A stretch of 64,000 nucleotides of DNA from positions 1 through 64,000 of the forward strand of contig NZ_KB889666.1 of assembly GCF_000372745.1 (NCBI RefSeq), written 5' to 3'. The DNA is from Embleya scabrispora DSM 41855. Its GTDB lineage: Bacteria; Actinomycetota; Actinomycetes; Streptomycetales; Streptomycetaceae. Under the pieces are notes generated by a model. The model did no database searches, had not been told where the DNA came from, and saw only the letters and a list, made by a program, of their open reading frames with translations. Each line of letters begins with the position of its first letter. The first letter of the stretch is position 1. A program made the position numbers and the translations under genes. Positions 37,281 to 56,065 of this stretch are shown in pieces.

Positions 37281-38864
37281 CTAGGAGCCCGGGCGCCGCT
37301 GTGCGACCAGCGCGGCGACCTGTGCGCGGTTGATCTTCCCGGTGCTGCTGCGGCCGACGGAGTCGACGAAGTGGAACTCGCGCGGTGTCTTGAACCGCGC
37401 CAGACGGTCGGCCAGGTGACTGCGCAGGCGGGTGGCAGCCGGCTCGCCGCCCTCCTCGCCGCCCTTCAGCTGCACGACGGCGACGACGCGCTGCCCCCAC
37501 TCGTCATCCTGCACGCCGATAACCACGGCGTCGGCGACCGAAGGCTCCGTCACGAGGGCGGCTTCCACCTCGGCCGGGTAGATGTTGACGCCCCCCGAGA
37601 GGATCAGATCCGAGCGTCGGTCGCCGACGTAGAGATAGCCGTCCTCGTCGAGGTGGCCGATGTCGCCCGCGGTCCGGAACGGGTCGTGGGCGTCCGATGC
37701 CCCGGCGGGGATCAAGTCCCCGGCCGCGCCGCTGTAGGTGAAATCGAAGCCACCGCTGACGTAGATGGTGCCGGCCTCGCCCGCGGGGAGCGGCCGTCCG
37801 TCGCTCCCGCGGATCTCGAGCTGGATGCCGGGTGCCGCGCGACCTGCGGAGCCTGGCTTCTGCAACGCCTCCTCGGAAGTGATGATCGTGGCGATGCCGA
37901 ACTCCGTGCACCCGTAGTACTCGGTGAGCACCGGACCCCACCACTGGATCATCCGCTGTTTCAGCTCCGGCGGGCACGGTGCTCCAGCGTGGGTGACCAG
38001 CTGGAGCGAGCGGCCTGAGAAGGAGTCGCGGATCGACGCGTCGAGGTCGAGAAGCCGATGAAACATGACCGGGACCATGAACGTGGTCGTGACCCCGAAT
38101 CGGTCGATGAGCGAGAGCGTCTCAGCCGCGTCGAACCGTGTGGTGATGACGAGCTCCTGCCCCAGGTGCAGAGCGCAGAGCGCGTTCAGATTCGGTGCCG
38201 GGTGGTAGAGCGGGGCGACCACCAGGTGCACCTGGTGGAGCCCGGTGTCGGTGTCGTACTGCGCGAACCGCTGTCGAGCTCGGGCATCGGCTGCCTCGTC
38301 GGGGGTCGTCGTCGGCAGCGCCCGACGGACACCCTTGGGGCGCCCGCTCGTCCCAGAGCTGTAGTACTGCACCGAGCCTGCGCTCCGCTGCATCGGCGCA
38401 GAGGCAGGATGCCGTGCGAGCAGGTTCTCGGCCGAGAGTCCGTCCGACGCGCCTCCGACCACGACGACGCGGTCGGGGGCGAGGCCGCCACCCAGGCGAG
38501 CCCCTTCGACGGCAAGCGACTCGAGGGCAGACTCGGTCACCACGGCGCGAGCCCCGGAATCCCCGATCAGGTAGGCGGCCTCGGAGGCGGTCAGGTGCCA
38601 GTTGACTGGAACGAGGTATAGGCCGATCTGCTCCGCCGCGAGCTGTGCGGCGATGAAGGTCGCACCGTTCCTCAGGACGAGGGCCACGGTCTCGCCGCGC
38701 TGCAGATCCAGGTCGTCCCGCAGCAGGCGGGACCAACGGTGGGCGTCATCGAGCAGGTCGCCCCGCGTGACGGTCTCGGACCCGAGCCGCAACGCGACGC
38801 AGTCGCGGTCGCCGGCCGCGATCTCGAAGAAGCCCCGAGCAGGCGCGGCCGCCGGTGTTGTCAT
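37281..38864 (-). CDS. Acyl-CoA synthetase (AMP-forming, class I)
   Basis: 527-residue AMP-dependent ligase that activates a carboxylic acid to its CoA thioester. Motifs in order: the P-loop YYSSGTSGRPKGVRRAL, YHPAPNLNAL, TEYYGCTEFG (adenine-binding), the hinge region TAGDIGHLDEDGYLYVGDR with SDLILSGGVNIYPAEVE, and the A10 catalytic lysine in GRSSTGKINRAQV. Length is normal for medium/long-chain or aromatic acid ligases; the substrate cannot be told. It overlaps the thiolase-like gene by ATGA and is the last gene of the minus-strand operon starting at 40452. Confidence 0.92.
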   Translation of the reverse strand: MTTPAAAPARGFFEIAAGDRDCVALRLGSETVTRGDLLDDAHRWSRLLRDDLDLQRGETVALVLRNGATFIAAQLAAEQIGLYLVPVNWHLTASEAAYLIGDSGARAVVTESALESLAVEGARLGGGLAPDRVVVVGGASDGLSAENLLARHPASAPMQRSAGSVQYYSSGTSGRPKGVRRALPTTTPDEAADARARQRFAQYDTDTGLHQVHLVVAPLYHPAPNLNALCALHLGQELVITTRFDAAETLSLIDRFGVTTTFMVPVMFHRLLDLDASIRDSFSGRSLQLVTHAGAPCPPELKQRMIQWWGPVLTEYYGCTEFGIATIITSEEALQKPGSAGRAAPGIQLEIRGSDGRPLPAGEAGTIYVSGGFDFTYSGAAGDLIPAGASDAHDPFRTAGDIGHLDEDGYLYVGDRRSDLILSGGVNIYPAEVEAALVTEPSVADAVVIGVQDDEWGQRVVAVVQLKGGEEGGEPAATRLRSHLADRLARFKTPREFHFVDSVGRSSTGKINRAQVAALVAQRRPGS

Positions 38865-40006
38865 GCCGACACCTCCTGGTTCGAGAGCACCAGCGTCGCC
38901 GCCTCCGAGAAGAAGTGTCCAACACCCTGGACCACACTGACCTCCACGTCGGGCACCTGGGCGAACGCCTCGCCCCGGAGCTGGCGGACGGCCTCCTGGA
39001 TCGCGAACATCCCGTACATGCCGGTGTGGGTGTAGCGAAGGCCGCCGCCGTTGGTGTTCATCGGCAGGTGGCCGCCCGGGGCGGTGTTACCTTCGGCGAC
39101 GAACGCGCCGGCCTCCCCACGCCCGACGAAACCGAGCGCCTCGAGGCCGTACAGCGGTACGTGTGCGAACGCGTCGTAGACCATCAGGTGATCCACGTCG
39201 TTGTGGCTGATGCGCGCCTCGGTGAAGGCAGCCGCGGCCGACCGCTCGAACGTCTCGGCGCGCGTGAGGTCAGGCATCTGCGACACCAAAGGGCTGTCGG
39301 CCGCCTCGCCCGACCCCCACAGATAGACGGGGGTGCGGCGCAGTTCGCGGGCGCGCTCTGCCGACGTGACGACCAGCCCACCGCCTCCGTCGCTCACCAT
39401 GCAGCACATGAGCTTGGTGAACGGCCAGGCGATCGGCGTCGATGCCAGGACCTCGTCGACGCTCGCGAGAGAGGGGCGGGCCGCTCGGGGATTTCCGTGC
39501 GACCACTCGCTCTGCCGAGCCGGCACGGAGGCCAGCTGCTCGATCGTCGTCCCCGTCTCGTGGGCGTAGCGGAGGTAAGGGAGCGTGAACATCGTGGGAG
39601 GGCCGTAGACGCCGAACGGTAGCTCGAACTGACCGAGCATCCCGTCGGCCGGCACCGGACGCGGATGGCGCCCGACCACCGACCGACGGGATTCGCCGTG
39701 CAGCACGAGGACGACTTCGGCCTGTCCGGCAGCGATCGCGGCAGCAGCGTGACGCACGTGCACCAGAAACGACGTCCCGCCCACACTCGTGCCGTCGAAC
39801 CACGTCGGACGGACTCCCAACGCGTGAGCGATCTCGACCGGGTTGTGCACGGCGCTCGTGATGCCGTCGACATCGTCGAGGCTCAGGCCGGCGTCGGCGA
39901 GAGCGAGCAGCGCGGCATCGACGTGGAGGTCCAACTCAGACATGGCGGGCAGTCGTCCGAGGCTCGTTTCGGCGGCGCCGGCGATGGCGGCCACGGGGCG
40001 ACTCAC
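38861..40006 (-). CDS. Thiolase-superfamily protein without nucleophilic Cys (lipid-transfer protein/aldolase type)
   Basis: 381-residue thiolase-fold protein related to SCP-x/Ltp2-type enzymes. VDGITSAVHNPVEIAHALGV and WFDGTSVGGTSFLVHVRHAA cover the place of the thiolase Cys, which is absent. LMVYDAFAHVPLYGLEALGF and GGHLPMNTNGGGLRYTHTGM are the typical C-terminal motifs. Proteins of this type that work with a DUF35 partner (Ltp2 in steroid side-chain degradation) are retro-aldolases that split beta-hydroxyacyl-CoAs carrying a tertiary alcohol. A DUF35 gene lies directly upstream, overlapping by ATGA, so the same type of complex is likely. Aldolase activity is inference from this pairing. 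Confidence 0.82.
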   Translation of the reverse strand: MSRPVAAIAGAAETSLGRLPAMSELDLHVDAALLALADAGLSLDDVDGITSAVHNPVEIAHALGVRPTWFDGTSVGGTSFLVHVRHAAAAIAAGQAEVVLVLHGESRRSVVGRHPRPVPADGMLGQFELPFGVYGPPTMFTLPYLRYAHETGTTIEQLASVPARQSEWSHGNPRAARPSLASVDEVLASTPIAWPFTKLMCCMVSDGGGGLVVTSAERARELRRTPVYLWGSGEAADSPLVSQMPDLTRAETFERSAAAAFTEARISHNDVDHLMVYDAFAHVPLYGLEALGFVGRGEAGAFVAEGNTAPGGHLPMNTNGGGLRYTHTGMYGMFAIQEAVRQLRGEAFAQVPDVEVSVVQGVGHFFSEAATLVLSNQEVSA

Positions 40007-40452
40007 GCGGCGTGCTCCTCTCGGGGGGCGAACACCGGGACCACCTGGCCGCGCCGGTCCTCGAAGGCGACCCGCAGCGGCATGTCGATGACCAGCTGGT
40101 CGGGCACAGCGTCGCTCCCGATGATGTTCGTCATCATGGTCGGCCCTTCCTCCAGCCGGACGATCGCGATGACGTGCGGACCGACTGCTTCGAATCCGGG
40201 GGCGGGGAGGTGGTTGATGACATAGCTCAGCAACGTCGCGCGTCCGCTCACGTCAACCCACGACACCTCGCGGGAGCCACAGGACGGGCACGCGATGCGG
40301 GGGTAGAAGAAGTGCGTTTCACACGACCCGCACTGCTGGACCACCAGGCGGCCCTCGGTCGCGGCGTCCCAGAAGGGGCGGGTGGTCGGTGTCGGCAGCG
40401 CCTGCGCGGCGCCCTCGCCAGGGGTGACCCCGGACACAAACATTGGTACCAT
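40003..40452 (-). CDS. Zn-ribbon OB-fold protein (DUF35)
   Basis: 149-residue DUF35 protein with a rubredoxin-like zinc ribbon and an OB fold. Four cysteines occur in VVQQCGSCETHFFYPRIACP and the following SCGS; the OB part includes SGRATLLSYVINHLPAPGFE and HVIAIVRLEEGPTMMTNIIG. Such proteins bind CoA thioesters and serve thiolase-like partners, here the downstream overlapping gene. The start is ATG 40452, without a ribosome-binding site. A -10-like TATAGT at 40465-40460 and CTGGAC at 40488-40483, 17 bases apart, would put the transcription start at or next to this ATG, so the mRNA is probably leaderless. ATG 40443 is the alternative. Confidence 0.85.
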   Translation of the reverse strand: MVPMFVSGVTPGEGAAQALPTPTTRPFWDAATEGRLVVQQCGSCETHFFYPRIACPSCGSREVSWVDVSGRATLLSYVINHLPAPGFEAVGPHVIAIVRLEEGPTMMTNIIGSDAVPDQLVIDMPLRVAFEDRRGQVVPVFAPREEHAA

Positions 40453-40455
40453 GAG

Positions 40456-40483
40456 CGGTACTATACAGGTCGTTATGATACCG
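40456..40483. promoter_or_regulatory. Operator 1: CGGTA-N18-TACCG over divergent promoters
   Basis: 28-bp inverted repeat with half-sites CGGTACTAT and (other strand) CGGTATCAT. The minus-strand promoter CTGGAC-17-TATAGT (40488-40460) overlaps it almost entirely. On the plus strand TATGAT (40474-40479) may serve as the -10 for the amidohydrolase operon, with a weak -35. One of four sites with identical spacing in the island; the encoded TetR protein is the likely binder. Confidence 0.75.
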
Positions 40484-40530
40484 TCCAGTCGTTGCTCGGC
40501 ACTCGGCGCAACCGAGCGGAAGGAAGATTC

Positions 40531-41955
40531 GTGGGCACTCGAACGATCTACACGGGCGCGTTGGTCTTGGTGGGCGACCCCCGCAACGGCAGCTTTCAGC
40601 GAGTCGACGTCGAGGTCGTCGACGGCCGGATCAGTCGGCTTGCCGAGAACCTCGGGTCCACGCCCGAAGGTGCCGATGTCGTCGATGCGTCCTGGGCTTG
40701 GATCATCCCGGGGTTCGTGGACGCGCATCACCACATGTGGCAGGCGACGATGCGCGGCCTCACGGTGGACTTCACGCTGTCGGACTACGTGTGGACGATC
40801 CGGCGCAACCACTCCGGCGTGCACCGCGCGGTCGACATCTACAACGGGACGCTCGGTGCGGCCGTGGGGCTGCTCGACTCCGGCACGACCTGCTCGGTCG
40901 ACTACTCCCACAGCATCTTGACCCCTGAGCACGCCGACGCGGGCGTGGCGGCCATCAACGAGTCCGGAATCCGTGGCGTGTGGTGCTACGGGCTCTATGA
41001 CCCCCACACGACGAATCCGTACTTCACGTCTGTCGAGTCCCGTCTCGAGGACGCGCGACGCGTGCGTTCATCGTTGTTCGAGACCAGCGGCGGGCGGGTG
41101 CGCTTCGGGATCGCCCCGACCGAGATGAGCCTGAACGGCATCGAGCAGGCCGCCCAGGAAATGGTGCTCGGGCGCGAGCTGGATTGCCTGATCCACACTC
41201 ACACCAACGCCCGGTGGAAGCCCGGATACCGGTCGGAGATCAAGCAGCTGGCCGAGGCTGGGCTCCTCTGGTCGCACCAGCTCCACTCGCACTGCAACAC
41301 CTCCGACGCCGAGGACTTCGCGATCCTGGCCGATCATGGGGCCAAGGTCTCCTCCACCCCCGAGACCGAGCTCAATATGGGGATGGGGTTCCCGATCGCC
41401 GCCGTCGCCGACCGCGTCGGTGTCGTGGCGGGGCTGGGTGCGGACATCCAGTCGAACAACTCTCCCGACATGTTCACGACCATGCGCCTGATGCTGGCGG
41501 GGGAGCGTGCGCGGGCCAATCAGCGCGCGCTGGAGGAGAAAGGCATTTACGACATGGGCGGCCTCGAGTTGCGTGCTGCCGACGTGCTGTACTTCGCGAC
41601 GCTCGGCGGAGCCACCGGTCTGGGCCTGGAGGACGAGTGCGGTTCGATCGACGTCGGCAAGGCCGCCGATCTCCTCTTCATCCGCAACACATCCCTGAAC
41701 CTGACACCAGCCGTCGACCCGATGGGTGCGATCGTCATGAGCGCTCGAACCTCCGACGTCGACACCGTCCTCGTCGGCGGTGAGGTCGTCAAGCGGGACG
41801 GCGCGATGCGTGCCGACCTCGTCGAGAAGGCGATCCGAGGCCTACAGGAGTCGGGCACCCACATCGTGAACGAGTCGCAGGCGTACGGAGGCATGACGCC
41901 TCCGCAGCCCGAGTGGTGGGGCGCCGCGACCGCAGCGACGGGCTCGCCGTCATGA
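40531..41955 (+). CDS. Amidohydrolase, TRZ/ATZ (cyclic deaminase/chlorohydrolase) family
   Basis: 474-residue metal-dependent hydrolase of the group containing atrazine chlorohydrolase, guanine deaminase and S-adenosylhomocysteine deaminase. Metal ligands: PGFVDAHHHMWQATMRGL after strand 1, His in LIHTHTN, the following His of HQLHSHCN, and Asp in VVAGLGADIQSNNSPDM. GSIDVGKAADLLFI closes the barrel before the small beta domain. The GTG start has AAGGAAG upstream. The substrate is probably an amine, amide or halide on a ring, but cannot be told. It is the first gene of a plus-strand operon with the FAH and metallo-beta-lactamase genes and is controlled from operator 1. Confidence 0.9.
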   Translation: MGTRTIYTGALVLVGDPRNGSFQRVDVEVVDGRISRLAENLGSTPEGADVVDASWAWIIPGFVDAHHHMWQATMRGLTVDFTLSDYVWTIRRNHSGVHRAVDIYNGTLGAAVGLLDSGTTCSVDYSHSILTPEHADAGVAAINESGIRGVWCYGLYDPHTTNPYFTSVESRLEDARRVRSSLFETSGGRVRFGIAPTEMSLNGIEQAAQEMVLGRELDCLIHTHTNARWKPGYRSEIKQLAEAGLLWSHQLHSHCNTSDAEDFAILADHGAKVSSTPETELNMGMGFPIAAVADRVGVVAGLGADIQSNNSPDMFTTMRLMLAGERARANQRALEEKGIYDMGGLELRAADVLYFATLGGATGLGLEDECGSIDVGKAADLLFIRNTSLNLTPAVDPMGAIVMSARTSDVDTVLVGGEVVKRDGAMRADLVEKAIRGLQESGTHIVNESQAYGGMTPPQPEWWGAATAATGSPS

Positions 41956-42007
41956 CCCGTCGGCGGCCTCGTTTCGAGCGCTGGGACAGCGAACTCCGGG
42001 AGACGAC

Positions 42008-42949
42008 ATGCGGTGGGTGACATGCCGGCACCGGCACGGTCTGCGGGTCGGTCTGGTCGTCGACGACGCGGTGCATGTCTTGGACGACGACCGCACGCTG
42101 ATCGACGTGATCTCCGCAGGCCAGGTCGAGATGGAGCGCATCGCCGAGACGGTGCGGCGATCGCCCGCGACCGTCGTCCCACTCGAGTCGATGGTGCTGC
42201 ACTCCCCGATCCCGCAGCCGCCCTCCGTGCGCGACACGGTCGGCTTCCTCGACCATGTCCGCGGGTGCCGAAGGGCCTACGGCCGTGACCCGGAACTCGG
42301 CGAGGTCTGGAGCCGCGTTCCCGCCTTCTACTTCGCCAATCCGGCCACCCTGTTCGGCGCTCGCGACGACGTCGCGATCGCGCCGGGCTCACGCTGGTTC
42401 GACTTCGAGCTCGAAGTCGCAGCGGTCATCGGCACGCCCGGCTCGGACCTGGATCCTGTCGCCGCCCAGGACACGATCGCGGGCTACATGCTCTTCTGCG
42501 ACTGGACCGCCCGGGATCTGCAGCAGGCCGACATGGCGCTCGGCATCGGTCAGGGCAAAGGCAAGGACTCCGGCATGACGTTCGGTCCGTGGCTCGTGAC
42601 GGCCGACGAAGTCGCGAACCGGCTCGTCGACGGTCGCCTCGACCTCGAGGTGGCGGTCGAGGTCAACGGCGTCGAGATCGCCCGCGGGACGACCGGTGCA
42701 ATGGACTGGACCTTCGGAGAGATCGTGTCGTTCGTGTCGCGCGGCACCCGTTTGGTCCCCGGCGACGTCATCGGGTCCGGCACGATCCCCGGCGGTTGCC
42801 TGCTGGAGCACCTCGTCGGTGACCCGGAGACCTACGACGGATGGCTGAAGCGAGGCGACACCGTCTCACTCAACGGCCGCGCCCTCGGACGCACGCATCA
42901 GCGCATCGTCGACGGCGCCCGCCCTCACCCGCTCTCGAGCGGCTACTGA
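42008..42949 (+). CDS. Fumarylacetoacetate hydrolase-family protein
   Basis: 313-residue FAH-superfamily enzyme, which cleaves C-C bonds of beta-diketo or acylpyruvate acids, or hydrates/decarboxylates related diacids. The divalent-metal site is visible as the Glu-x-Glu of WFDFELEVAAVIG and the Asp of LFCDWTARDLQQADM. VNGVEIARGTTGAMDWTFGE and PGDVIGSGTIPGGCLLE are further core motifs, the usual GTPxGxG being GTIPGGC here. An N-terminal cap domain of about 80 residues is present. The ATG start has CGGGAG upstream. It lies between amidohydrolase and MBL-fold hydrolase in the same operon. Confidence 0.9.
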   Translation: MRWVTCRHRHGLRVGLVVDDAVHVLDDDRTLIDVISAGQVEMERIAETVRRSPATVVPLESMVLHSPIPQPPSVRDTVGFLDHVRGCRRAYGRDPELGEVWSRVPAFYFANPATLFGARDDVAIAPGSRWFDFELEVAAVIGTPGSDLDPVAAQDTIAGYMLFCDWTARDLQQADMALGIGQGKGKDSGMTFGPWLVTADEVANRLVDGRLDLEVAVEVNGVEIARGTTGAMDWTFGEIVSFVSRGTRLVPGDVIGSGTIPGGCLLEHLVGDPETYDGWLKRGDTVSLNGRALGRTHQRIVDGARPHPLSSGY

Positions 42950-42971
42950 TCCCGACCGACACGAGGAACCT

Positions 42972-43931
<960 letters not shown>

Positions 43932-44007
43932 CGCCCCGGCGCCGCGGCCGACGACGGATGGTTCGGCCGATGAGGTCCGCCCGATCTGTCAGCAGCGAGG
44001 CGGGCCC

Positions 44008-44285
44008 GTGGTCTCGCGACAGTCCGACGTGCTCGACGCACTCGAAGCGGCGTTCCTGGACGAGTGCCGGCGTACAACAATGCGGCTCTGGTCCGAAAAT
44101 AGAACTCTCCGTGCCTTCATGGTCCGCTACCACCTCGACGAGATCGACCGCCTGCGATCCACCGCCACCGCGTTCGACACGCGCATCGCCAACTTCGGGA
44201 CCCCGAGGTGCTGGACCGGATCGGTGCCGCACGAGGCGAGGCGTTGGAGCCGTTCGGGCATCTCTGCCGCCGTGGCCTGTCCTGA
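44008..44285 (+). pseudogene. TetR-family regulator remnant, paralogue of the gene at 48661
   Basis: The N-terminal piece RQSDVLDALEAAFLDE matches RQSDVLNALEEAFLAE of the intact TetR gene at 48661, and the C-terminal piece DPEVLDRIGAARGEALEPFG, in another frame, matches DPDVLDRVGATRADALELFG there. The terminal CRRGLS mirrors CRRGLA. The recognition helices and most of the ligand-binding domain have been replaced by about 130 bases of unrelated frame. This is a dead copy; its intact ancestor presumably stood before the SDR operon, whose operator is still present. Confidence 0.8.
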
Positions 44286-44324
44286 TCGGGCGTCGCCGAG
44301 AGCCGGCGGGGGGAGCGCATTCAC

Positions 44325-44357
44325 TTGTGCGGTACCAAAGAAGCATCTATAGTACCA
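44325..44357 (+). promoter_or_regulatory. Operator 2 overlapping promoter TTGTGC-N17-TATAGT
   Basis: The inverted repeat CGGTA-N18-TACCA (44330-44357) has half-sites CGGTACCAA and, on the other strand, TGGTACTAT. It covers the 17-bp spacer and the -10 TATAGT (44348-44353) of a good promoter whose -35 is TTGTGC (44325-44330). It would drive the SDR-to-CoA-transferase operon, starting at 44496, and leaves a leader of about 135 bases. Confidence 0.78.
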
Positions 44358-44495
44358 GAACTGTTACCAGCATCACGCGCTGGTCCGCGGTGTGCGCGGT
44401 GGAACGGCGGTGGCGCTCTTGGCGCCGCTCGGATCGCTGACGACCCCCGCAAGGATCCGCGTCGGCGTGCTGTTCATCGTCGGAAGGACCTGTCA

Positions 44496-45260
44496 ATGAC
44501 CGACACCCCATCGGTGTACGTGGTGACCGGAGGTGCCGGCGGACTCGGCGGCGCCACGGCGAAGCTCTTGGCGGAGCGCGACGTGTCCGTCGTGGTGACC
44601 GACCTGGTCGACGCCGACGAGAGCGAGCTGCGCGCGCGGCTCGGTGAGCGCGTGACGTTCGTCCGCGGCGACGTCTGCTCGGAGAGCGACCTCGGCCAGG
44701 TGCTCGACCACGCCTCCGAACGCGGCACGATCCGCGGGCTGGTCCACTGTCCGGGGAAGGGTTTCCCCCGCAGGATCGTGGACCGTGCCGGGACGCCATT
44801 CCCGCTGGACCGGTTCGAGACCGCCCTGAGGCTGAATCTGGTGGGCACCTTCAACGCCCTGCGGCTGACGGCCGCACGCATGGCCACGAACGACCCCGAC
44901 GAAGGCGAACGCGGGTCGATCGTCATGACCGCGTCGGTCGCCGCCTGGGACGGGCAAGTCGGACAGATCGCCTACGCCGCCGCGAAGTCCGGCGTCGTCG
45001 GCATGACCCTGTGCGCCGCTCGTGACCTCGCCGACCTCGGCATCCGCGTCAACACCATCGCTCCTGGCATCTTCGATACCCCGCTGCTGGCCCGGTTCTC
45101 CCAGGACATCCGCGACGGCCTCGCGGAATCGGTCACCTTCCCCAAGCGCCTCGGTGACCCGGAGGAGTACGCCTCGCTCGCCGACCAGCTACTCCATAAC
45201 CGCTACCTGAACGGCGAGGTCATCCGCCTCGACGGCGCCATCCGGATGGCGCCCCGATGA
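44496..45260 (+). CDS. Short-chain dehydrogenase, 3-hydroxyacyl-CoA dehydrogenase type II-like
   Basis: 254-residue NAD-dependent SDR resembling HSD10/17beta-HSD type 10, which oxidises 2-methyl-3-hydroxyacyl-CoA. The cofactor motif is VTGGAGGLGGATAKLLAE, with Asp in VVVTDLVDAD selecting NAD. The catalytic Ser is in VMTASVAAWDGQVGQIAYAA, where Tyr is followed by AAKSG. IRVNTIAPGIFDTPLLARF and HNRYLNGEVIRLDGAIRM are characteristic of the HSD10 group. The ATG start has GGAAGGA upstream. It is the first gene of an operon with enoyl-CoA hydratase, racemase and CoA transferase genes, and it overlaps the next gene by ATGA. Confidence 0.9.
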   Translation: MTDTPSVYVVTGGAGGLGGATAKLLAERDVSVVVTDLVDADESELRARLGERVTFVRGDVCSESDLGQVLDHASERGTIRGLVHCPGKGFPRRIVDRAGTPFPLDRFETALRLNLVGTFNALRLTAARMATNDPDEGERGSIVMTASVAAWDGQVGQIAYAAAKSGVVGMTLCAARDLADLGIRVNTIAPGIFDTPLLARFSQDIRDGLAESVTFPKRLGDPEEYASLADQLLHNRYLNGEVIRLDGAIRMAPR

Positions 45261-46030
45261 GCGCCGCCGGTGCCCCGGTCTTGTTCGAGGAGACCGACGG
45301 TGTCGCGACGATCACCCTCAACCGTCCCGCGGTGCGCAACGCCGTCGACGCCTCGATGGCGGGAGCTCTCGCCGAGATCGTCGACCACCTGGACGAGCGC
45401 AGCGACCTCCGCGCAGCCATCCTCACCGGTACCGGCGGCAGCTTCTGCTCGGGCATGGACCTGAAGGCCTTCGTCCGTGGCGAGAAGTCCTCGATCCCGG
45501 GCCGCGGGTTCGCCGGATTCACCGCCCGCCCTCCCGCCATCCCCGTGATAGCCGCCGTCGAAGGTGCCGCCGTCGCCGGCGGCTGCGAGCTCGTGCTCGC
45601 CTGCGACCTGGTTGTCGCGGCCGAGTCCGCACGCTTCGGGGTGCCGGAGGTCAAGCGCGGACTGGTCGCCGTAGGCGGCGCGCTCCTCAAGCTGCCGTCG
45701 CGGATCCCGTACCAGGTCGCAATGGAGTGGATCCTGACCGGCGACCTGGTCGGCGCTCGTCGCGCCCACGAGGTGGGGCTGGTCAACGCGGTGGCGCCGG
45801 ACGGTGAGGCACTGGCGGTCGCCCGGCGCTTGGCAGACCGCGTCGCCGCCAACGGCCCGCTGGCGCTTCGCGCCAGCAAGCAGATCGTCGCGGCGTCGTC
45901 CTCGTGGAGCCACGAAGAGGCGTACGAGCGTCAGCTCGAGATAGCGCGCCCGGTGACGGAGTCGGCGGACGCCCAGGAGGGCGCCCGTGCCTTTGCCGAG
46001 AAGCGAAGCCCCGTGTGGAGCGGTCGATGA
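45257..46030 (+). CDS. Enoyl-CoA hydratase/isomerase family protein
   Basis: 257-residue crotonase-superfamily enzyme. ATITLNRPAVRNAVDASM is the N-terminal family stretch. The oxyanion-hole backbone regions are GSFCSGMDLKAF and AAVEGAAVAGGCELVLACD. ARFGVPEVKRGLVAVGGALL covers the catalytic Glu region; one of the two usual glutamates is present (PEVKRGL). LGxxRA-type motifs are represented by GDLVGARRAHEVGLVNAV. It hydrates the double bond of an enoyl-CoA in beta-oxidation, feeding the SDR encoded just upstream. It overlaps both neighbours by ATGA. Confidence 0.9.
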   Translation: MSAAGAPVLFEETDGVATITLNRPAVRNAVDASMAGALAEIVDHLDERSDLRAAILTGTGGSFCSGMDLKAFVRGEKSSIPGRGFAGFTARPPAIPVIAAVEGAAVAGGCELVLACDLVVAAESARFGVPEVKRGLVAVGGALLKLPSRIPYQVAMEWILTGDLVGARRAHEVGLVNAVAPDGEALAVARRLADRVAANGPLALRASKQIVAASSSWSHEEAYERQLEIARPVTESADAQEGARAFAEKRSPVWSGR

Positions 46031-47190
46031 GCGCGGGGCCGCTGGACGGCGTGCGTGTCGTCGAGCTCGGCGGGATCGGACCGGCGCCGTTCGCGTGCAT
46101 GATGCTCGCCGACCTCGGCGCCGACGTCATCAGGATCGACCGGCCGGGAGCCGAGCTCCACCCGGTGATGCACCGCAATCGCCGCTCGATCGCGCTCGAT
46201 CTCAAGTCTCCGGAGGGCCGCGCGATCGCGATGCGGCTGGTCGCGGCCGGCGACGTCGCCATCGAGGGCTTTCGCCCAGGGGTGGCCGAACGCTTGGGCC
46301 TTGGGCCTGACGACGTCTCGCGCGAGGCGCCGCACGTCGTGTACGGCCGGATGACCGGTTGGGGGCAGGACGGTCCCTGGGCACAGCTTCCCGGGCACGA
46401 CATCAACTACATCGCCCTGACCGGCGCCCTCCATGCGATCGGCCCCGCCGACGGGGACCCAGTGGTGCCACTCAACCTCATTGGCGACTTCGGCGGTGGC
46501 GGCATGCTGTTGGCCTACGGCGTCCTCGCGGCCGTCGTCAGCGCTCGCACCACAGGGCGAGGGCAGGTCGTCGACGCCGCGATGATCGACGGCTCGGCGG
46601 CCCTCATGGCGATGCTCCACGGGTACCTCGCCGAGGGGCGATGGGTCGACGAGCGTGGGGTGAACCACCTCGACGGCGGCGCTCCCTACTACCGGACGTA
46701 CGCGTGCAGCGATGGTCGGCACGTGGCGGTCGGCTGCATCGAGCCGCAGTTCTACGCGAGCCTGCTCAAGGGGCTTGACCTGGGCGACGACCCGGACTTC
46801 ACGGCCCAGGACGATCGCTCGCGATGGCCGTCCATGGTGCACCGCCTGCAGGCGATCTTCGGTTCGAGGCCGCGTGACGAGTGGGCCGAAGTGTTCGCCA
46901 CGAGCTCGGCCTGCGTCACCCCGGTTCTGTCGATCGGTGAAGCGCCACTGCACCCGCACCACGTCGAACGGCAGACCTATACCTTGCTCGGCGACGGTCA
47001 CATGGCGCGACCCGTGCCTCGCTTCGCGGGAACACCTGCCGCCGAGCCGCGCCCGGCACCCGTCGTCGGTAGCGACGGCTTTGCGCTGCTGGGGGAACTC
47101 GGCCTCGAGGCAGCCGAGGTCCGGAGTCATCTTGAGGCGGGGGTGGTCGTGCTGCCGCCGAGCGCCACCGACGAGGGGGGACCGAGGTGA
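46027..47190 (+). CDS. Alpha-methylacyl-CoA racemase-like class III CoA-transferase family protein
   Basis: 387-residue CaiB/BaiF-family protein. It has the racemase signature LPGHDINYIALTGALHAIG and PLNLIGDFGGGGMLLAYGVL (catalytic His and Asp of AMACR/MCR), with no transferase-type catalytic Asp at the position used by formyl-CoA transferase. MMLADLGADVIRIDRPGAEL and HRNRRSIALDLKSPEGRAI are the CoA-binding family motifs. It should interconvert 2R and 2S 2-methylacyl-CoAs before dehydrogenation, implying a branched substrate. It overlaps the hydratase and CoA-transferase genes by four bases. Confidence 0.88.
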   Translation: MSAGPLDGVRVVELGGIGPAPFACMMLADLGADVIRIDRPGAELHPVMHRNRRSIALDLKSPEGRAIAMRLVAAGDVAIEGFRPGVAERLGLGPDDVSREAPHVVYGRMTGWGQDGPWAQLPGHDINYIALTGALHAIGPADGDPVVPLNLIGDFGGGGMLLAYGVLAAVVSARTTGRGQVVDAAMIDGSAALMAMLHGYLAEGRWVDERGVNHLDGGAPYYRTYACSDGRHVAVGCIEPQFYASLLKGLDLGDDPDFTAQDDRSRWPSMVHRLQAIFGSRPRDEWAEVFATSSACVTPVLSIGEAPLHPHHVERQTYTLLGDGHMARPVPRFAGTPAAEPRPAPVVGSDGFALLGELGLEAAEVRSHLEAGVVVLPPSATDEGGPR

Positions 47191-47900
47191 CGACGGCGCG
47201 CGAGCTCGTGGCTCGTTACGTGTTCGACGGCATGACGATCGCCGTCGGGGGTTTCGGCCTCTGTGGCAACCCGTTCGACCTGATCGAGGCGGTCCGTGAC
47301 TCGGGCGTGACCGACCTGACGATCGTCTCCAACAACATGGGTACCGACGGCAAGGGTCTCGGCGTGCTCCTGGAGGGTCGGCAGGTCCGCAAGGTCGTGG
47401 CGTCCTACGTCGGTGAGAACCGCCGGTTCGCCCAGCAGTACCTCGACGGGCAGCTTGAGATCGAGTTCACCCCGCAGGGCACCCTGGCCGAACGGCTCCG
47501 CGCGGGCGGGGCGGGGATTCCCGCCTTCTACACCCCGACCGGAGCCCACACGATCGTCGCCGAGGGCAAGCCGACCACGCAGATGGGCGGCCGTACCGTG
47601 ATCCTGGAGCACGCGATCGTCGCGGACCTCGCACTCGTGCGCGCCCACCACGCGGACGCGGCGGGCAACTTGACGTATCGAATGACAGCGCGGAACTTCA
47701 ATCCCGTCGTCGCCACTGCGGGGCGGGTCACGCTCGCGGAGGTCGACCGGGTGGTGGAGGAGTACCTCGACCCCGACCTCGTGCAGACGCCGGGAATCTA
47801 CGTCGACGAGGTGGTCGTCGCGTCGGCGCGAGCGCCGGAGATCGAGCAACGGACGACGCGGCCGCGGCAGTCCGAAGGAGGCGCCCATGTGGAGGCGTGA
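47187..47900 (+). CDS. CoA transferase family I, subunit A
   Basis: 237-residue alpha subunit of a two-subunit acid CoA transferase (SCOT/3-oxoadipate CoA-transferase type). [20 protein letters not shown] with the GGFGxxGxP motif, [39 protein letters not shown] and [11 protein letters not shown] are typical. It moves CoA from succinyl- or acetyl-CoA to a free acid. The GTG start overlaps the previous stop as GTGA. The B subunit starts 14 bases before this gene ends. Confidence 0.93.
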
Positions 47901-48543
47901 GCAGATGGCCGCCGTCGCGGCGCGCGAGCTGGTCGACGGCGCGTATGTCAATCTCGGGATCGGCATTCCGACGTTGGTCGCGAATCACGTGCCGGCGGCC
48001 ATCCGGGTGACCCTGCAAAGCGAGAACGGCATGCTGGGCATGGGGGAGTTCCCGCTCGAGGGCAACGAGGACGCCGACCTCATCAACGCTGGTAAGCAGA
48101 CGGTCACGATCGAGCCGGGTGGCAGCTTCTTCGGGTCCGACCAGTCCTTCGCGATGATTCGCGGCGGCCACATCGACCTGGCGATCCTCGGGGCCATGCA
48201 GGTGTCGGGGTCGGGCGACCTCGCCAACTGGACGATCCCCGGTGTGCTCGTCAAGGGCATGGGCGGCGCGATGGACCTCGTGGCGGGGGCCCGGCGGGTC
48301 GTCGTCCTGACCGACCACACGACGAAGGACGGCCGGCCCAAGATCGTCGAGACCTGCGACCTGCCCCTGACCGGCCGCGGTGTCGTGGACCGGGTCGTCA
48401 CCGACCTGGCCATCTTCGACGTGACGCAGGCAGGTCTGGCGCTGGTCGAGCTCGCCCCCGAGGTGACGCTGGAGGAGGTCCGCGACCGCACGGGCTGCCG
48501 GTTCGACGATCTCCGGGAGGGTACGGCGCACGGCATCGACTGA
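47887..48543 (+). CDS. CoA transferase family I, subunit B
   Basis: 218-residue beta subunit, with the catalytic glutamate in [16 protein letters not shown] and the family motifs [35 protein letters not shown] and [19 protein letters not shown]. The ATG has AAGGAGG upstream inside the A-subunit gene, so the two are made in step. It is the last gene of the operon; the TetR gene with its own operator follows after about 115 bp. Confidence 0.93.
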
Positions 48544-48581
48544 CGGTGCAGCCGCCCGACCACGACTCCAGGCCCAGGAAG

Positions 48582-48609
48582 CGGTATCGTTCGCGACCTC
48601 GGAGTACCG
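48582..48609. promoter_or_regulatory. Operator 3: CGGTA-N18-TACCG upstream of tetR
   Basis: 28-bp inverted repeat with half-sites CGGTATCGT and, on the other strand, CGGTACTCC, 51 bases before the TetR start codon. Spacing matches the other three sites exactly. The -10 region here is poor, consistent with weak autoregulated expression. Its position suggests that the regulator represses itself. Confidence 0.72.
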
Positions 48610-48660
48610 TGAATCGGGCCGGCCCAGTCCCGGTGACGACGCAGTGAAGTGAGGTGGACC

Positions 48661-49239
48661 ATGCCGGACGTCAGGTCGAACGCCCTTTCCGGGCGGCAGT
48701 CCGACGTACTCAACGCCCTTGAGGAGGCCTTCCTCGCCGAGGGCTTCCGCCATCTCACGATTGGTGACATGGCCGCCCTCGCTCGCACCTCCCGTCGCAC
48801 GATCTATCACCTGGGGCAGACCAAGGACGAGGTCGTGGTCGGCGTCGTCGACCGCTACTTCAACTCGATGGGCAAGGAGGCACTGCGCCGCGCCCACGAC
48901 ACAGCGAATGTGCACGACCAGATCGAGGCCTATCTGTCAGCCTCCGTTGAGCGCAATCGTCGAGCCAGCCGTCAGTTCGTGCACGACGTCGAGAACTATC
49001 TGCCTACGAGCCACGTCTACGACCGCCATCAGGAGATCGCGATTCGGGAGCTGGAGACGATCGTGCGAAAGGCGATGGAGCGGGGAGAGGTTACCGGTGG
49101 GTCGCCGGCCTTGTGGGCCGAGATGCTCGGCGCAGTGATCCGTCACCTGCGGGACCCCGATGTGCTCGATCGAGTGGGCGCCACCCGCGCCGACGCACTT
49201 GAGTTGTTCGGGCGGTTCTGCCGCCGCGGCCTGGCTTGA
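48661..49239 (+). CDS. TetR-family transcriptional regulator of the island
   Basis: 192-residue regulator. The N-terminal helix-turn-helix covers about residues 10-55: SGRQSDVLNALEEAF, then LTIGDMAALARTSRRTIYHL and a C-terminal helix GQTKDEVVVGVVDRYFNSMG. The remainder is all-helical ligand-binding domain with an Asp/Glu/Arg-rich character. The ATG has GAGGTGG close upstream. The inverted repeats at 40456, 44330, 48582 and 50140 are its probable binding sites, and a pathway CoA ester or the imported substrate its probable inducer; both are inference. A truncated paralogue is at 44008. An IS1182-like remnant begins three bases after its stop. Confidence 0.88.
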   Translation: MPDVRSNALSGRQSDVLNALEEAFLAEGFRHLTIGDMAALARTSRRTIYHLGQTKDEVVVGVVDRYFNSMGKEALRRAHDTANVHDQIEAYLSASVERNRRASRQFVHDVENYLPTSHVYDRHQEIAIRELETIVRKAMERGEVTGGSPALWAEMLGAVIRHLRDPDVLDRVGATRADALELFGRFCRRGLA

Positions 49240-49242
49240 GCC

Positions 49243-49970
49243 TGACTCTGCCGGGGATCTTGGATGGCCGGACTCAACTACCGAGGGTGCGCCAGGACTT
49301 CGGCCTGGGAATCGCGTTCTCATCCAGGAAGGTCTGGAAGGCAGTCGGCGGCCTCGGTTCTCGCGGGGGGAAGCCCACCTTCCGGGCGCTCTCGCGGGAG
49401 CTGGTGCACCGAGGGCGGTCCGGACACGGCCGGCACTGGCTCGTGGTGAACCGCGCCACGATCAAGGGGTTGCCCGGCAGTGGACCGCTGACGGTGATCC
49501 GGTGTTCGCGGGCGGCGCGTTCCGGATGGACCAGTGAGGTGTAGCCGCCGTCGACCGGGTGCTCGTCGGGCAGCAGCCCGCGACGCGCCAGGCGGGTGTC
49601 GGGGCGTGTGAAGTCGATGCGGCATCGGACCGCTTCCGCTGCCTGACGGTCCGACAGACCGAGCAGGAACTGCGGTACACACACCGGCCAATTGGGCGGG
49701 CGAGACGCCGGGGCGTCCGTCGCGCGGGTACCGGCCCGCGAAGTCCTCGTCGCATCCCAGTCCGTCCAGCCGGTCTCTCACCCACATCGCCGTCGTACCG
49801 CTCGGATTGCTCGCGCGCGATCTGCGCGGTCAGAGACGGGACTTGCTCACCGGATCGGGGACGGAGCGACGACGGGCACCTCGCAGCCGCATCGGTCTTT
49901 GAAACAGTCCCGAGCATGCCTGCTGATCATGGTGGTGCACCGGGAAACTCCAAGATCCCCGGCAGAGTCA
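49243..49970. mobile_element. IS1182-family element remnant with terminal inverted repeats
   Basis: Bounded by perfect 22-bp inverted repeats at 49243-49264 and 49949-49970 (starting TGACTCTGCCGG). Immediately outside both ends is AGCC (49239-49242 and 49971-49974), a possible 4-bp target duplication. At 728 bp it is far shorter than a complete IS1182 element (about 1.6-2 kb) because the transposase gene inside has lost its middle. It inserted between the TetR gene and the ABC-transporter operon. Confidence 0.8.
49320..49835 (-). pseudogene. IS1182-type transposase, internally deleted and frameshifted
   Basis: N-terminal pieces [34 protein letters not shown] and, in another frame, [20 protein letters not shown] match the start of IS1182 transposases. 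The frame then jumps to [19 protein letters not shown] and [18 protein letters not shown] from the C-terminal half. The catalytic centre is lost. It lies inside the inverted repeats 49243/49970. Confidence 0.8.
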
Positions 49971-50134
49971 AGCCGAGACGCGATCGTGTGGCCGCTCGAT
50001 AGGCGGCAGCGGCACGCCGGACTGAACGGCATGGGACCGCATTCGATGTAGCCGCCCTGCCGCCGTGGTCCGGCCCTGTGACGCTTCTGCTGCCGTCCTC
50101 GGAGGACCGCCGAGGGCGAGGTTCGATGACGGCC

Positions 50135-50167
50135 TTGACCGGTACCAGAGGTGCGCTTACGATACCG
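50135..50167 (+). promoter_or_regulatory. Operator 4 overlapping promoter TTGACC-N17-TACGAT
   Basis: The inverted repeat CGGTA-N18-TACCG (50140-50167; half-sites CGGTACCAG and CGGTATCGT) covers the spacer and -10 of a near-consensus promoter, -35 TTGACC at 50135-50140 and -10 TACGAT at 50158-50163. It is 160 bases upstream of the ABC-transporter gene and would control the whole importer-to-hydratase operon. Confidence 0.78.
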
Positions 50168-50330
50168 ATGGCAGTACCAAATGTGGGCTGGGTCACTCGA
50201 TCGATCGTGATCGTCAGCGCAGTTCCGCGGCCTGCGAGTGGCTCCCCCGAGCGACTCGTGTGGTCATCCAACTGCCGCAGGACGGGGCGGACCTGGTCCG
50301 CGCCGACGTGAAACCGAGGGAGGAGAAGGT

Positions 50331-51494
50331 ATGACGAGAACTCGCATCGCGGCGGTGTGCGGGGCGCTGCTGGCGCTCACGCTGTCGGCGTGCGGCAGCT
50401 CGTCGTCGGACGGTCCCACCGGGTCGACCAGCGACGTCATCATCAAGCAGGCGAAGGCCTCGACGGAGCACGCCCTCGCCGGCACCGATCGTGCCCTGCC
50501 GACCCACGGTCCCAAGGCGCAGGCCGGCAAGACCGTGTGGGCGCTCGCCTGCAGCACCCAGGCGGCCGGCTGCGTCGTGCCGGCCCAGGGATTCGTCGAC
50601 GCCTCGAAGGCGCTCGGGTGGGAGGTCAAGCTGGTCGACGGCAAGGTCGACCCGGCGGTCTACAACTCCCAACTGCGGGCCGCTGCGGCTGCGCACGTCG
50701 ATGCCGTCGCCTTGTTCGGCGTCGATTGCTCCGTGGTCAAGGCCTCGATTGAGGTGGTGCACGCAGCCGGCGTCAAGGTCTACGGCGGCAACGCGCTCGA
50801 CTGCGACGACAAGTTCAGCCACGGTGGCAAGCCCCTGTTCGACGAGTACCTACGGTTCAACCAGGACCTGATCTCGTACGAGGACTACATGAGCACCTTC
50901 GTCGGCCCCACGATCGCCGACTGGGTCATCGCCAAGACCGACGGCACGGCGGACGTCGTCCTGATGCGCCAGGACGACAACGCCACCCTCCGGATGGTCG
51001 GAGACGCCCAGGCCGGCCGCCTCGCCGAGTGCGGCGGATGCGTGGTCCATCAGGTGACGTTTACTTCTGTTGACCTGTTCGGCGGGAAGCTGCAGGGCAA
51101 GGCCGCCGCCGCGCTCCAGCAGTTCCCGAACGCGGACGTCGTCATGGTTCCGGCCGACTCGGCGATCACCCTCGGAGTGGGGGCGGCTGTCGACCAAGCG
51201 CGCCAGGGCGGGCGTAAGGACCTGCTGCTCGCGGGCAACGAGGGTGTTGCCTCGTCGATCACCCTGATTCGCAACGGGACGCAGTCCTACGCGGTCGGCC
51301 GGCCGCTCACCTGGACCGGCTGGGCTGCGGCGGACGGCCTGAACCGGCTCTTCGCCGGCGAAAAGCCGGTCGATTCGGGCATGGGCATCGGCAGCATGGA
51401 CGCCAAGCACCTCCCCGGCGGCAACGTGTACGACGGCAACCCGGCATCGTCGGGCTACCAGGAGAACTACAAGAAGATCTGGGGAGTGGGCTGA
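50331..51494 (+). CDS. ABC transporter substrate-binding lipoprotein (sugar-type)
   Basis: 387-residue lipoprotein with signal peptide MTRTRIAAVCGALLALTLSA, then Cys of the lipobox, attached outside the membrane. The binding fold is of the periplasmic binding protein type 4 used for sugars and related ligands: KTVWALACSTQAAGCVVPAQ, VDGKVDPAVYNSQLRAAAAA, PNADVVMVPADSAITLGVGA and LLLAGNEGV. The ligand cannot be read; the genes around it suggest the catabolic substrate rather than a sugar. The ATG has GGAGGAGAAGG directly upstream. It is the first gene of the operon under operator 4, one base before the ATPase gene. Confidence 0.9.
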   Translation: MTRTRIAAVCGALLALTLSACGSSSSDGPTGSTSDVIIKQAKASTEHALAGTDRALPTHGPKAQAGKTVWALACSTQAAGCVVPAQGFVDASKALGWEVKLVDGKVDPAVYNSQLRAAAAAHVDAVALFGVDCSVVKASIEVVHAAGVKVYGGNALDCDDKFSHGGKPLFDEYLRFNQDLISYEDYMSTFVGPTIADWVIAKTDGTADVVLMRQDDNATLRMVGDAQAGRLAECGGCVVHQVTFTSVDLFGGKLQGKAAAALQQFPNADVVMVPADSAITLGVGAAVDQARQGGRKDLLLAGNEGVASSITLIRNGTQSYAVGRPLTWTGWAAADGLNRLFAGEKPVDSGMGIGSMDAKHLPGGNVYDGNPASSGYQENYKKIWGVG

Positions 51495-53036
51495 GTGGTC
51501 GACGCCACCTCCGGGAGACGGGCGAGCGCTTTGGCGCTCGCCCGCCTCTCCAAGACCTTCCCCGGCACGCGAGCCCTCGCGGACGTGAGCCTCTCGGTCG
51601 CGCCCGGCCACTTCCACGCACTCGTAGGCGGCAACGGCTCAGGGAAGTCCACGCTCATCAAGATCCTCGCCGGCGTCTACAGCGCCGACCGGGGTGGGTC
51701 GCTCCACCTGGGTGACGAGAGCTTCGACGTCGAGCAGTTGACGCCGCGCTGGTCCCGGGAGGCAGGCATCAGGTTCGTCCACCAGGACCTCGGCCTGTTC
51801 CCGGAGCTGACCGTGACAGAGAACGTCCTCGCAGGCAGTCCTTTCCCGCGACGGCGCGGCGGCATCGACTGGTCCGAGGCACGCCGATCGGTCCAGCGAC
51901 TGCTGGACGCGCTCGAGATCCCTGTCCACGCGCGGTCCCTCGTGCGTGACCTGCGACCTGCCGACCAGACGCTCATCGCGGTGGCGCGCTGCCTGCGCGA
52001 CCGCGACTCCTGCGGCGTCGGTTTGCTCGTCCTGGACGAGCCGACGACGCGCCTGCCCGCCGACGAGGTGGACGGCCTGCTTCAGCGGCTGAGTGCCTAC
52101 AGCAGTCGGGGCCAGAGCATCCTCTACGTCACGCACCGGCTCGACGAGGTTCTCAGCTACGCCGACACCGTGACGGTGCTGCGCGACGGCCGCCACGTCG
52201 ACACCCGCCCCGCGGCCCAGCACGATCGCGAGAGTCTGGTGGCGCACATAGCAGGACACGCGCCCGCTAAGCGACAGCGCCGGCCGCGGACCTCCTTCGG
52301 ACCAGCCGTGCTCTCGGTCGAAGGCCTGCGGGGTGGCCCCCTGGAGAACGTCACCTTCGATATCCGCGCCGGGGAGGTCGTGGCCCTGGCCGGGTTGGTC
52401 GGCAGCGGCCGGACCAGCGTGATGCAAAACGTCATGGGAGCGGTCAAGCCGCGGGGAGGCTCGGTCTCAGTGAGCGGCCGACGGCTCCGGTCCGGGCACG
52501 TCGCCGAGGCGATCTCGCGTGGCCTCGCGATCGTCCCCGAGGAGCGGGCGCGCGACGGTGCGTTCCTGTCCCTGTCGGTGACCGAGAACCTCTCGGCGTC
52601 GACGATCGGTCGGTACCGGCGCGGCGGCTGGTTGCGACGCACCGACGAGCGCAGGGATGCCGAGCGCGACATCGACACTTACGGCATCAAGGGAACGGCG
52701 GACGCACCGATCGCTCGGTTGTCGGGCGGGAACCAGCAGAAGGCCGTGATGGCGCGGGCGATGAGGTCCGCCCCGGTCGTCCTCCTCCTGGACGAGCCGA
52801 CGCAGGGGGTCGACGTCGGTGCACGGGCCGACATCCACGCCCGGATCGACGCAGCCGTCGCCGGCGGTGCGGGAGTGCTCCTTGCGACGTCCGACCTCGA
52901 TGAGTTGCTCCATCTCGCCGACCGGGTGCTCGTGCTTGCCGACGGCCGCATCACAAGCGAGGCCTCGGGTCCGGATATCACCCGCACATGGATCTTCGAC
53001 AACGTCTACCAGCACGAGAAGGAGGCATCGACATGA
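51495..53036 (+). CDS. Sugar-type ABC transporter ATP-binding protein, two ATPase domains
   Basis: 513-residue RbsA/XylG-type ATPase. The first domain has Walker A VGGNGSGKSTLIKILAG, Q-loop HQDLGLFPELTVTENVL, a poor signature (RDLRPADQTL) and Walker B VGLLVLDEPTTRLP. The second has the degenerate Walker A GLVGSGRTSVMQ usual in this group, the signature LSGGNQQKAVMARAM and Walker B VVLLLDEPTQGVDVGARAD. It energises uptake together with the neighbouring binding protein and permease. The GTG start immediately follows the binding-protein stop; its end overlaps the permease start. Confidence 0.93.
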   Translation: MVDATSGRRASALALARLSKTFPGTRALADVSLSVAPGHFHALVGGNGSGKSTLIKILAGVYSADRGGSLHLGDESFDVEQLTPRWSREAGIRFVHQDLGLFPELTVTENVLAGSPFPRRRGGIDWSEARRSVQRLLDALEIPVHARSLVRDLRPADQTLIAVARCLRDRDSCGVGLLVLDEPTTRLPADEVDGLLQRLSAYSSRGQSILYVTHRLDEVLSYADTVTVLRDGRHVDTRPAAQHDRESLVAHIAGHAPAKRQRRPRTSFGPAVLSVEGLRGGPLENVTFDIRAGEVVALAGLVGSGRTSVMQNVMGAVKPRGGSVSVSGRRLRSGHVAEAISRGLAIVPEERARDGAFLSLSVTENLSASTIGRYRRGGWLRRTDERRDAERDIDTYGIKGTADAPIARLSGGNQQKAVMARAMRSAPVVLLLDEPTQGVDVGARADIHARIDAAVAGGAGVLLATSDLDELLHLADRVLVLADGRITSEASGPDITRTWIFDNVYQHEKEAST

Positions 53037-54088
53037 CATCCCAGGACGCCCGTACCACCCTCGAGATGCCGACCGAGAAGCCACCCGCCGAGGACAACGC
53101 CGTGCCGACGACGAATGGATGGCGCCCGTCGCTCCTGCGCCTGACCGAGCGTTTTGGACTCGTGATGCTGCTGCTGGGCGTCGCGATCTACTTCGCCCTC
53201 GATCCCGCCACGTCGGCGACGTTCCCCACGGTGTCGAATCTCCGCAACATCGTGGCCAACGAGTCGGTGCTGATCCTGGTGGCACTCGCCGCCCTGATCC
53301 CCTTGGTGGCGCATCGCTTCGACCTCTCGGTAGGAGCGATCGTGGCACTGACGTCGATCGCCGCGGCCAAAGCGACCACCTCGATGGAGCTGCCGATCCT
53401 CGTCGGCGTGGTCATCGCCGTGACGATCGGTGCGCTGGTTGGGCTGGCGAACGGGATCCTCACCGCGTACTTCCGGGCCAACTCGCTCGTCATCACCCTC
53501 GGCATGGCCACCCTGCTCGGGGGCGTGGCGTCCGCGTGGTCCGGCCATCAGACCATCGTCGGCGTCCCCGTGACCCTCACGAACTTCGGCAACGGCCTGT
53601 GGTTCGGCGTCCCGCGGCCGGTGTACCTCGTCATCGTGGCCGCACTGGCGGTGTCCTTCCTCCTCGGGCTGACGATCTTCGGGCGGCGTCTGTTGTCGGT
53701 GGGCGTCAACGAGACGGCGGCACACCTCGTGGGCCTGCCGGTCCAGCGCACGGTCGCTCTGGCCTTCGTCGCCTCGGGCGCGCTCGCCGGCCTGGCGGGT
53801 GCGCTGCTCCTCGCTCGGACCGGTAGCGCGGCCTCCGGGGTCGGGGTGGGCTACCTGCTTCCGGCGCTCGCTGCGATCTTCCTGGGGTCGACCACCATCC
53901 GCCCGGGGCGCTATACCGTCGCGGGCACTCTCGTCGGCGTGTTCTTCGTCGCCATCAGCATCAACGGCTTGACCCTCGCAGGAGCGGCCGACTGGGTCGA
54001 GCCCGCGTTCAACGGCGGCGCCGTCATCGTCGCGGTGGCGGTCTCCTCACTGCTGACCCACCGTCGCCTGACGGGTGCGTCGCGATGA
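53033..54088 (+). CDS. Sugar-type ABC transporter permease
   Basis: 351-residue inner-membrane permease of the RbsC/XylH family, with about ten hydrophobic helices (for example LVMLLLGVAIYFALDP, LILVALAALIPLVAHRFDLS, NSLVITLGMATLLGGVASAW, SGALAGLAGALLLARTG). RFDLSVGAIVALTSIAAA is the family motif before the third helix. It probably works as a homodimer with the double ATPase. The ATG has GAAGGAGG upstream. It overlaps the ATPase and the acyl-CoA dehydrogenase genes by four bases each, so uptake and degradation are made from one mRNA. Confidence 0.92.
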   Translation: MTSQDARTTLEMPTEKPPAEDNAVPTTNGWRPSLLRLTERFGLVMLLLGVAIYFALDPATSATFPTVSNLRNIVANESVLILVALAALIPLVAHRFDLSVGAIVALTSIAAAKATTSMELPILVGVVIAVTIGALVGLANGILTAYFRANSLVITLGMATLLGGVASAWSGHQTIVGVPVTLTNFGNGLWFGVPRPVYLVIVAALAVSFLLGLTIFGRRLLSVGVNETAAHLVGLPVQRTVALAFVASGALAGLAGALLLARTGSAASGVGVGYLLPALAAIFLGSTTIRPGRYTVAGTLVGVFFVAISINGLTLAGAADWVEPAFNGGAVIVAVAVSSLLTHRRLTGASR

Positions 54089-56048: not shown

Positions 56049-56065
56049 GCAGGAGGGAATCCCGC

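Follow-up and report, generated by a model that had tools for sequence, protein, structure and literature searches.

The first 64,000 bases of contig NZ_KB889666.1 of Embleya scabrispora DSM 41855 (the window, below) carry a cluster of catabolic and transport genes, the gene of a TetR-type regulator, P0001, and four inverted repeats, S1 to S4, which are predicted to be operators of this regulator. A preliminary description of the DNA had placed four 28-bp sites of the form CGGTA-N18-TACCG here, and all four are where it put them: the pattern is exact at S1, S3 and S4 and has one mismatch (last base A) at S2.

40456..40483, no strand assigned: predicted operator S1, inverted repeat CGGTACTATACAGGTCGTTATGATACCG, with a divergent unit on either side; kept in the related clusters L005 and L006
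44330..44357, plus strand: predicted operator S2, CGGTACCAAAGAAGCATCTATAGTACCA, before the short-chain dehydrogenase/reductase (SDR) unit
48582..48609, plus strand: predicted operator S3, CGGTATCGTTCGCGACCTCGGAGTACCG, before tetR, without a third half-site
50140..50167, plus strand: predicted operator S4, CGGTACCAGAGGTGCGCTTACGATACCG, before the transporter unit
48661..49239, plus strand: TetR-type regulator P0001, 192 amino acids; alternative GTG start possible at 48649

With up to one mismatch allowed, CGGTA-N18-TACCG gave eight matches in the window, compared with a mean of 1.25 and a largest count of 4 in 100 shuffles; the remaining four, each with one mismatch, lie at 23434, 26198, 36041 and 39617. 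The half-site consensus suggested earlier, CGGTAYYRT, proved about right (GGTA in 8/8 half-sites, CGGTA in 7/8, YY in 8/8, R in 7/8 and the final T in 5/8). The core GGTAY-N16-RTACC is found at exactly four places in the window, and these are S1–S4.

A scan of genome contigs with the TetR protein, which detects close relatives only, returned two loci, one in Streptomyces samsunensis (L005, 98% identity) and one in Nocardioides carbamazepini (L006, 94%). In both clusters the four sites are all present and their order is unchanged, and GGTAY-N16-RTACC occurs at four places in each. When the four sites of the window were compared with those of Nocardioides, the ten arm bases agreed at 40/40 positions and the nine-base arms at 64/72; agreement was 21/40 for the ten central bases and 131/240 for the 60 flanking bases. 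Among four genomes from the same genus as the window, only the window's own had the regulator at E 1e-20.

S1, S2 and S4 each have an extra half-site exactly 12 bp beyond one arm, and this holds in all three genomes (window, L005 and L006). No third half-site is present at S3 in any of the same three. Since the third half-site of S1 overlaps a predicted gene start, S2 and S4 provide the cleaner evidence.

40444..40452, plus strand: third half-site of S1, TGGTACCAT, 12 bp beyond the left arm, sharing bases with the region of the predicted leftward start codon
44365..44369, minus strand: third half-site of S2, TACCA, 12 bp beyond the right arm
50175..50179, minus strand: third half-site of S4, TACCA, 12 bp beyond the right arm

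The preliminary description also had three of the sites lying across -10 elements with 17-bp spacers. Reading by eye bears this out for S1 in both directions (ATGAGC/TATGAT and CTGGAC/TATAGT, with poor -35s), S2 (TTGTGC/TATAGT) and S4 (TTGACC/TACGAT), the left arm in each case following the -35 and the right arm across the -10; at S3, no convincing -10 was seen by eye. A consensus promoter scanner recovered only part of this set, namely the S4 promoter and the leftward S1 promoter, the latter with a 16-bp spacer (two found, 0.3 expected). At 40441-40467, the -10-like TATAGT of the leftward transcript is followed by seven bases and an ATG, as is also the case in Nocardioides; this transcript may be leaderless.

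The 28-bp geometry of the window sites was found again upstream of distant TetR homologues with 25–36% identity. The first sample comprised 49 places (the window's own excluded) and two of three further distant ones, making 51 loci; L054 was excluded, its coordinates being the same as those of L015. L064 gave no match at E 1e-6, and removal of three near-copies left 47 non-redundant homologues, for each of which 250 bases upstream plus 30 were counted. In these 47 regions, pairs of GTAC cores were separated by 20 bp 32 times, by 12 bp 20 times, by 8 bp 13 times and by 32 bp 8 times. Dinucleotide shuffling (300 rounds) gave means of ~0.1, with largest counts of 1, 1, 2 and 2 at 20, 12, 8 and 32 bp, and no distance exceeded 3. 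Control sequence further upstream (39,702 bases) contained at most one 20-bp pair, its commonest distance being 33 bp (four times); downstream control sequence (50,955 bases) contained three 20-bp pairs, equal to the counts at 44 and 24 bp. An exact 20-bp GTAC pair is present in 27 of the 47 regions. With ATAC and GTAT allowed, the number rises to 29, in 24 of which a third core stands on the 12-bp step and in five of which it does not. The window sites fit the same grid, with three half-sites at S1, S2 and S4 and the 20-bp pair only at S3. The scan of this and related genomes that the preliminary description proposed was thus favorable to it, in that the footprint is conserved in two clusters and the same geometry recurs upstream of many TetR homologues.

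At 23 of 50 loci of the first sample, the homologue is divergent from a frame resembling the acyl-CoA dehydrogenase of the cluster (the frame picker may have missed some acyl-CoA dehydrogenases); the 20-bp pair was found at all 23, with exact GTAC at 21, and at 9 of the 27 other loci. A later sample of 120 genomes of one family (f46) yielded 80 genomes with a homologue at E 1e-10, at 81 places, of which the 30 best-scoring were used, none of them part of the first count. All 30 genes are divergent from an acyl-CoA dehydrogenase gene, and the 20-bp pair is present in 26 of the 27 regions that remained after removal of near-copies, the exception being L108. Members of this sample are interrelated, and the result therefore describes conservation within one family, not 26 independent events. 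The window differs from this grid subfamily in that its acyl-CoA dehydrogenase gene lies in the S4 unit and is not divergent from tetR.

Seven plasmid records also matched, and among the five actinobacterial ones examined, the array was present on R. oxybenzonivorans pRB98, on R. pyridinivorans pA (its array: CAGTACTG) and in S. nojiriensis. On a tree of 58 proteins, built by a quick method, with 20 of 55 inner branches weak and a long branch leading to the window protein, presence of the array requires 7 changes, compared with a mean of 17.7 for shuffled labels (0/500 as low). The helix-turn-helix (HTH) positions S44, Y49 and G28-F29 are common to all 58 aligned proteins. A locus in the genus Nocardioides (L055, 9413-9440) combines a 36%-identical TetR with the same operator; that TetR stands near genes for a ribose-type transporter and an E1-type dehydrogenase, not an acyl-CoA dehydrogenase.

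Because the same spaced pattern stands upstream of so many distant relatives, it looks like a shared operator code. We consider it somewhat more probable than the contrary that the operators of a large TetR subfamily of actinobacteria follow a modular code, in which GTAC half-sites keep to a fixed 12/20-bp grid and the position of the third half-site (inside, or outside to the left or right) differs between lineages. Promoters within a regulon would then be tunable by half-site number (two at S3; three at S1, S2 and S4), and the code would persist at ~30% protein identity, with targets readable when anchored to the regulator gene.

Whether the motif is common genome-wide, which the preliminary description had named as a point that could overturn its reading, depends on the pattern used. 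Across the 190 contigs of the genome (11.39 Mb), five-base arms with N18 occur exactly at six places, three of them in the cluster; when up to one mismatch is tolerated, each strand has 301 places, compared with 218 for a reversed control, so the short arms alone are common and mean little. The fuller motif is not common: CGGTAYYR-N12-YRRTACCR has three exact places in the genome, all in the cluster (S1, S2 and S4), and 13 places, S3 among them, match it with one mismatch; this specificity is partly circular, since the pattern was derived from the sites themselves. Without mismatch, this motif occurs at three places in the S. samsunensis genome and two in that of N. carbamazepini, all within the cluster; with one mismatch, there are further places in both genomes too.

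The units that the sites would control were deduced from gene order. According to the preliminary description, the sites precede tetR and three catabolic units; the former is correct, and the latter requires correction, as S1 lies between divergent units and there are four catabolic or transport units. The four sites therefore serve five units, tetR included.

37281..40452, minus strand: leftward unit, with AMP-binding acyl-CoA synthetase, thiolase-like protein and ChsH2-type zinc ribbon/OB-fold protein
40531..43931, plus strand: rightward S1 unit, with amidohydrolase, FAA-hydrolase family protein and metallo-beta-lactamase-fold protein
44496..48543, plus strand: S2 unit, with SDR, enoyl-CoA hydratase, CaiB-type CoA-transferase and CoA-transferase subunits A and B
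50331..58062, plus strand: S4 unit, with the binding protein, ATPase and permease of a ribose-type ABC transporter, acyl-CoA dehydrogenase, HpcH/HpaI-type lyase, CaiB-type CoA-transferase and MaoC-like dehydratase-region protein

S1–S4 are, with high probability, the operators of an autoregulated repressor, the TetR-type protein encoded at 48661-49239, each site probably binding two dimers. Without ligand, the protein would bind all four sites and cover the -35 and -10 elements at S1, S2 and S4 and, at S3, the DNA ahead of its own gene, with repression of the catabolic units, the transporter and tetR itself as the expected result. Here repression is suggested by the position of the sites over promoters and autoregulation by the site before tetR, both from the usual behavior of TetR proteins. 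Release would be brought about by a compound of the pathway. To judge from the genes present, this may be an intermediate, either an acid or an acyl-CoA ester, probably one into which the imported substrate is converted. Each operator would be an array of GTAC-like half-sites with two centers 20 bp apart, to which S1, S2 and S4 add a third, 12 bp beyond one arm. Most likely two dimers would occupy each site, each holding its recognition helices ~12 bp apart in the manner of QacR and CprB.

The distances bear on this arrangement. A 12-bp step corresponds to ~40 Å and a 20-bp step to ~66 Å, and the latter seems too long for one dimer. According to the accessible part of PMC4150764, recognition helices are 31 Å apart in TetR, 32.2 Å in SimR, 37 Å in QacR and 38.2 Å in CprB, two dimers of the last two bind 28 and 22 bp, respectively, and QacR-like two-dimer operators span 22–32 bp, a range that includes the 28 bp of the window sites. 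Two dimers per 28-bp site is thus an arrangement we moderately favor over one in which the same regulator, on the same sites, spans the arms 20 bp apart as one dimer, with the third half-site only recruiting a second dimer. The latter is possible, if distinctly less probable: in the first sample, every array with a 12-bp step also has a 20-bp pair, so that this pair seems to be the elementary unit, and the mycobacterial repressor BkaR is described in the accessible part of PMC3920632 as binding a shorter operator as one dimer, but a reach of ~66 Å is far above the 31–38 Å of the solved complexes (PMC4150764, same part). The half-sites are nearly palindromic, so their orientation cannot tell which pair one dimer holds. 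That P0001 acts as an activator at S1–S4 is unlikely; some TetR proteins do activate (FasR is so named in the NCBIfam listing), but the arms cover the -35 and -10, where repressors usually bind. Binding of the sites by another regulator, with its gene elsewhere, is quite unlikely, as sites and tetR travel together from Streptomyces to Nocardioides and the same grid lies upstream of TetR homologues in other genomes. The repeat might also be only a conserved bidirectional promoter element, given that the -10 hexamers of S1, S2 and S4 fall within the right arm; this is very improbable, because S3 lacks a clear -10 and yet keeps both arms in three genomes, those GGTA/TACC bases that lie outside the hexamers do not vary, and the grid recurs in homologues.

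Several observations weigh against the two-dimer repressor reading or parts of it. P0001 scores 20.5 bits with TetR_N (E 0.00043), under the Pfam cut-off of 24, and its best match among solved structures is TtgR (residues 13-69, E 0.00065); with the protein under the cut-off while TetR structures are its best matches, the TetR assignment rests on HTH similarity. The dimer model is drawn from distances only, and the predicted structure of P0001 alone (mean predicted local distance difference test score 50.7) is too poor to use. At S1, the third half-site shares bases with coding sequence. Among the homologues, 18 of 47 regions have no 20-bp pair even with ATAC and GTAT allowed, and two of the five plasmid homologues examined (R. 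opacus and P. equi) have no array. Finally, CRGTACYG-N12-CRGTACYG on its own occurs at 36 places in 35 of 394 genomes, five of these places adjoining a TetR homologue, and the reversed control at 34. Since the motif alone is at background, we make no claim of predicting regulons without the regulator gene.

Among characterized systems, QacR also has a 28-bp operator, and the 12-bp half-site step fits the 37–38 Å helix distance of QacR and CprB (accessible part of PMC4150764). The window sites differ from those of QacR and CprB in half-site sequence, in the third half-site outside the 28 bp and in their catabolic rather than efflux or antibiotic targets, and the similarity of QacR to P0001 is weak (E 0.23-0.46). 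BkaR (Rv2506/MSMEG_4718), a repressor of branched-chain keto-acid genes, resembles P0001 as a TetR repressor adjoining acyl-CoA catabolic genes, with a divergent operon and autoregulation, as far as the accessible part of PMC3920632 describes it. Its published operator, GTTA(N)T(N4)A(N)TAAC, has a 16-bp core bound by one dimer and differs from CGGTA-N18-TACCG (same part of PMC3920632), and BkaR was rejected as the family of P0001. MftR (NCBIfam TIGR03968) was rejected as well (27.7 bits, curated cut-off 224.9). Dehydrogenase-divergent actinobacterial homologues, such as those on the R. oxybenzonivorans and R. pyridinivorans plasmids, share the 20/12-bp GTAC grid; they have mostly CRGTACYG where the window has CGGTAYYR, a single array where it has four sites over 10 kb, and only 25–36% protein identity.

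No paper with this operator was found in a literature lacking most subscription journals. In the accessible form of PMC4482099 the motif logos were not readable, and one of its motifs may be this operator; AGTACT in the accessible parts of PMC1995591 and PMC7480387 belongs to polymerase chain reaction primers in both and was set aside. Two things go beyond the preliminary description: the third half-site at 12 bp and the assignment of the code to a TetR subfamily.

A decayed second tetR copy, with DNA ~74% identical to tetR, lies just upstream of S2 (43960-44285; L005 5173-5624). Different parts of it have been lost in the window and in S. samsunensis, and there is none at that place in Nocardioides; apart from it, the window's genome contains no other P0001 relative at E 0.001. 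Between tetR and S4 there is a ~730-bp insert (49240-49973) with 25-bp terminal inverted repeats that are 96% complementary. The insert is not present in S. samsunensis and, judged by its sequence, is an insertion-sequence-like or small non-autonomous element. The whole catabolic island, 36914-58081, is common to S. samsunensis (L047-L048; DNA identity 96-98%), and its surroundings are rearranged, since the SpoIIE-type gene (34167-36611) is on the other side there. The Nocardioides cluster is without the two CoA-transferase subunit genes (47160-48575), its CaiB gene being followed almost directly by S3 and tetR. The 54085-58062 segment (acyl-CoA dehydrogenase, RipC-like lyase, CaiB-type transferase, MaoC-like protein) resembles a module of the itaconate or citramalyl-CoA type; all its proteins are under curated cut-offs wherever such exist, and the lyase, nearest to RipC, is far under that cut-off (151 vs 375 bits).

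If this interpretation is true, it would give an operator and testable targets to a TetR group that, in these samples, stands mostly beside acyl-CoA dehydrogenase genes. The regulator and its predicted operators would also form a self-contained set common to Streptomyces and Nocardioides, a possible sensor once the ligand is identified, and the optional third half-site would offer a simple handle on the cooperation of TetR dimers on DNA.

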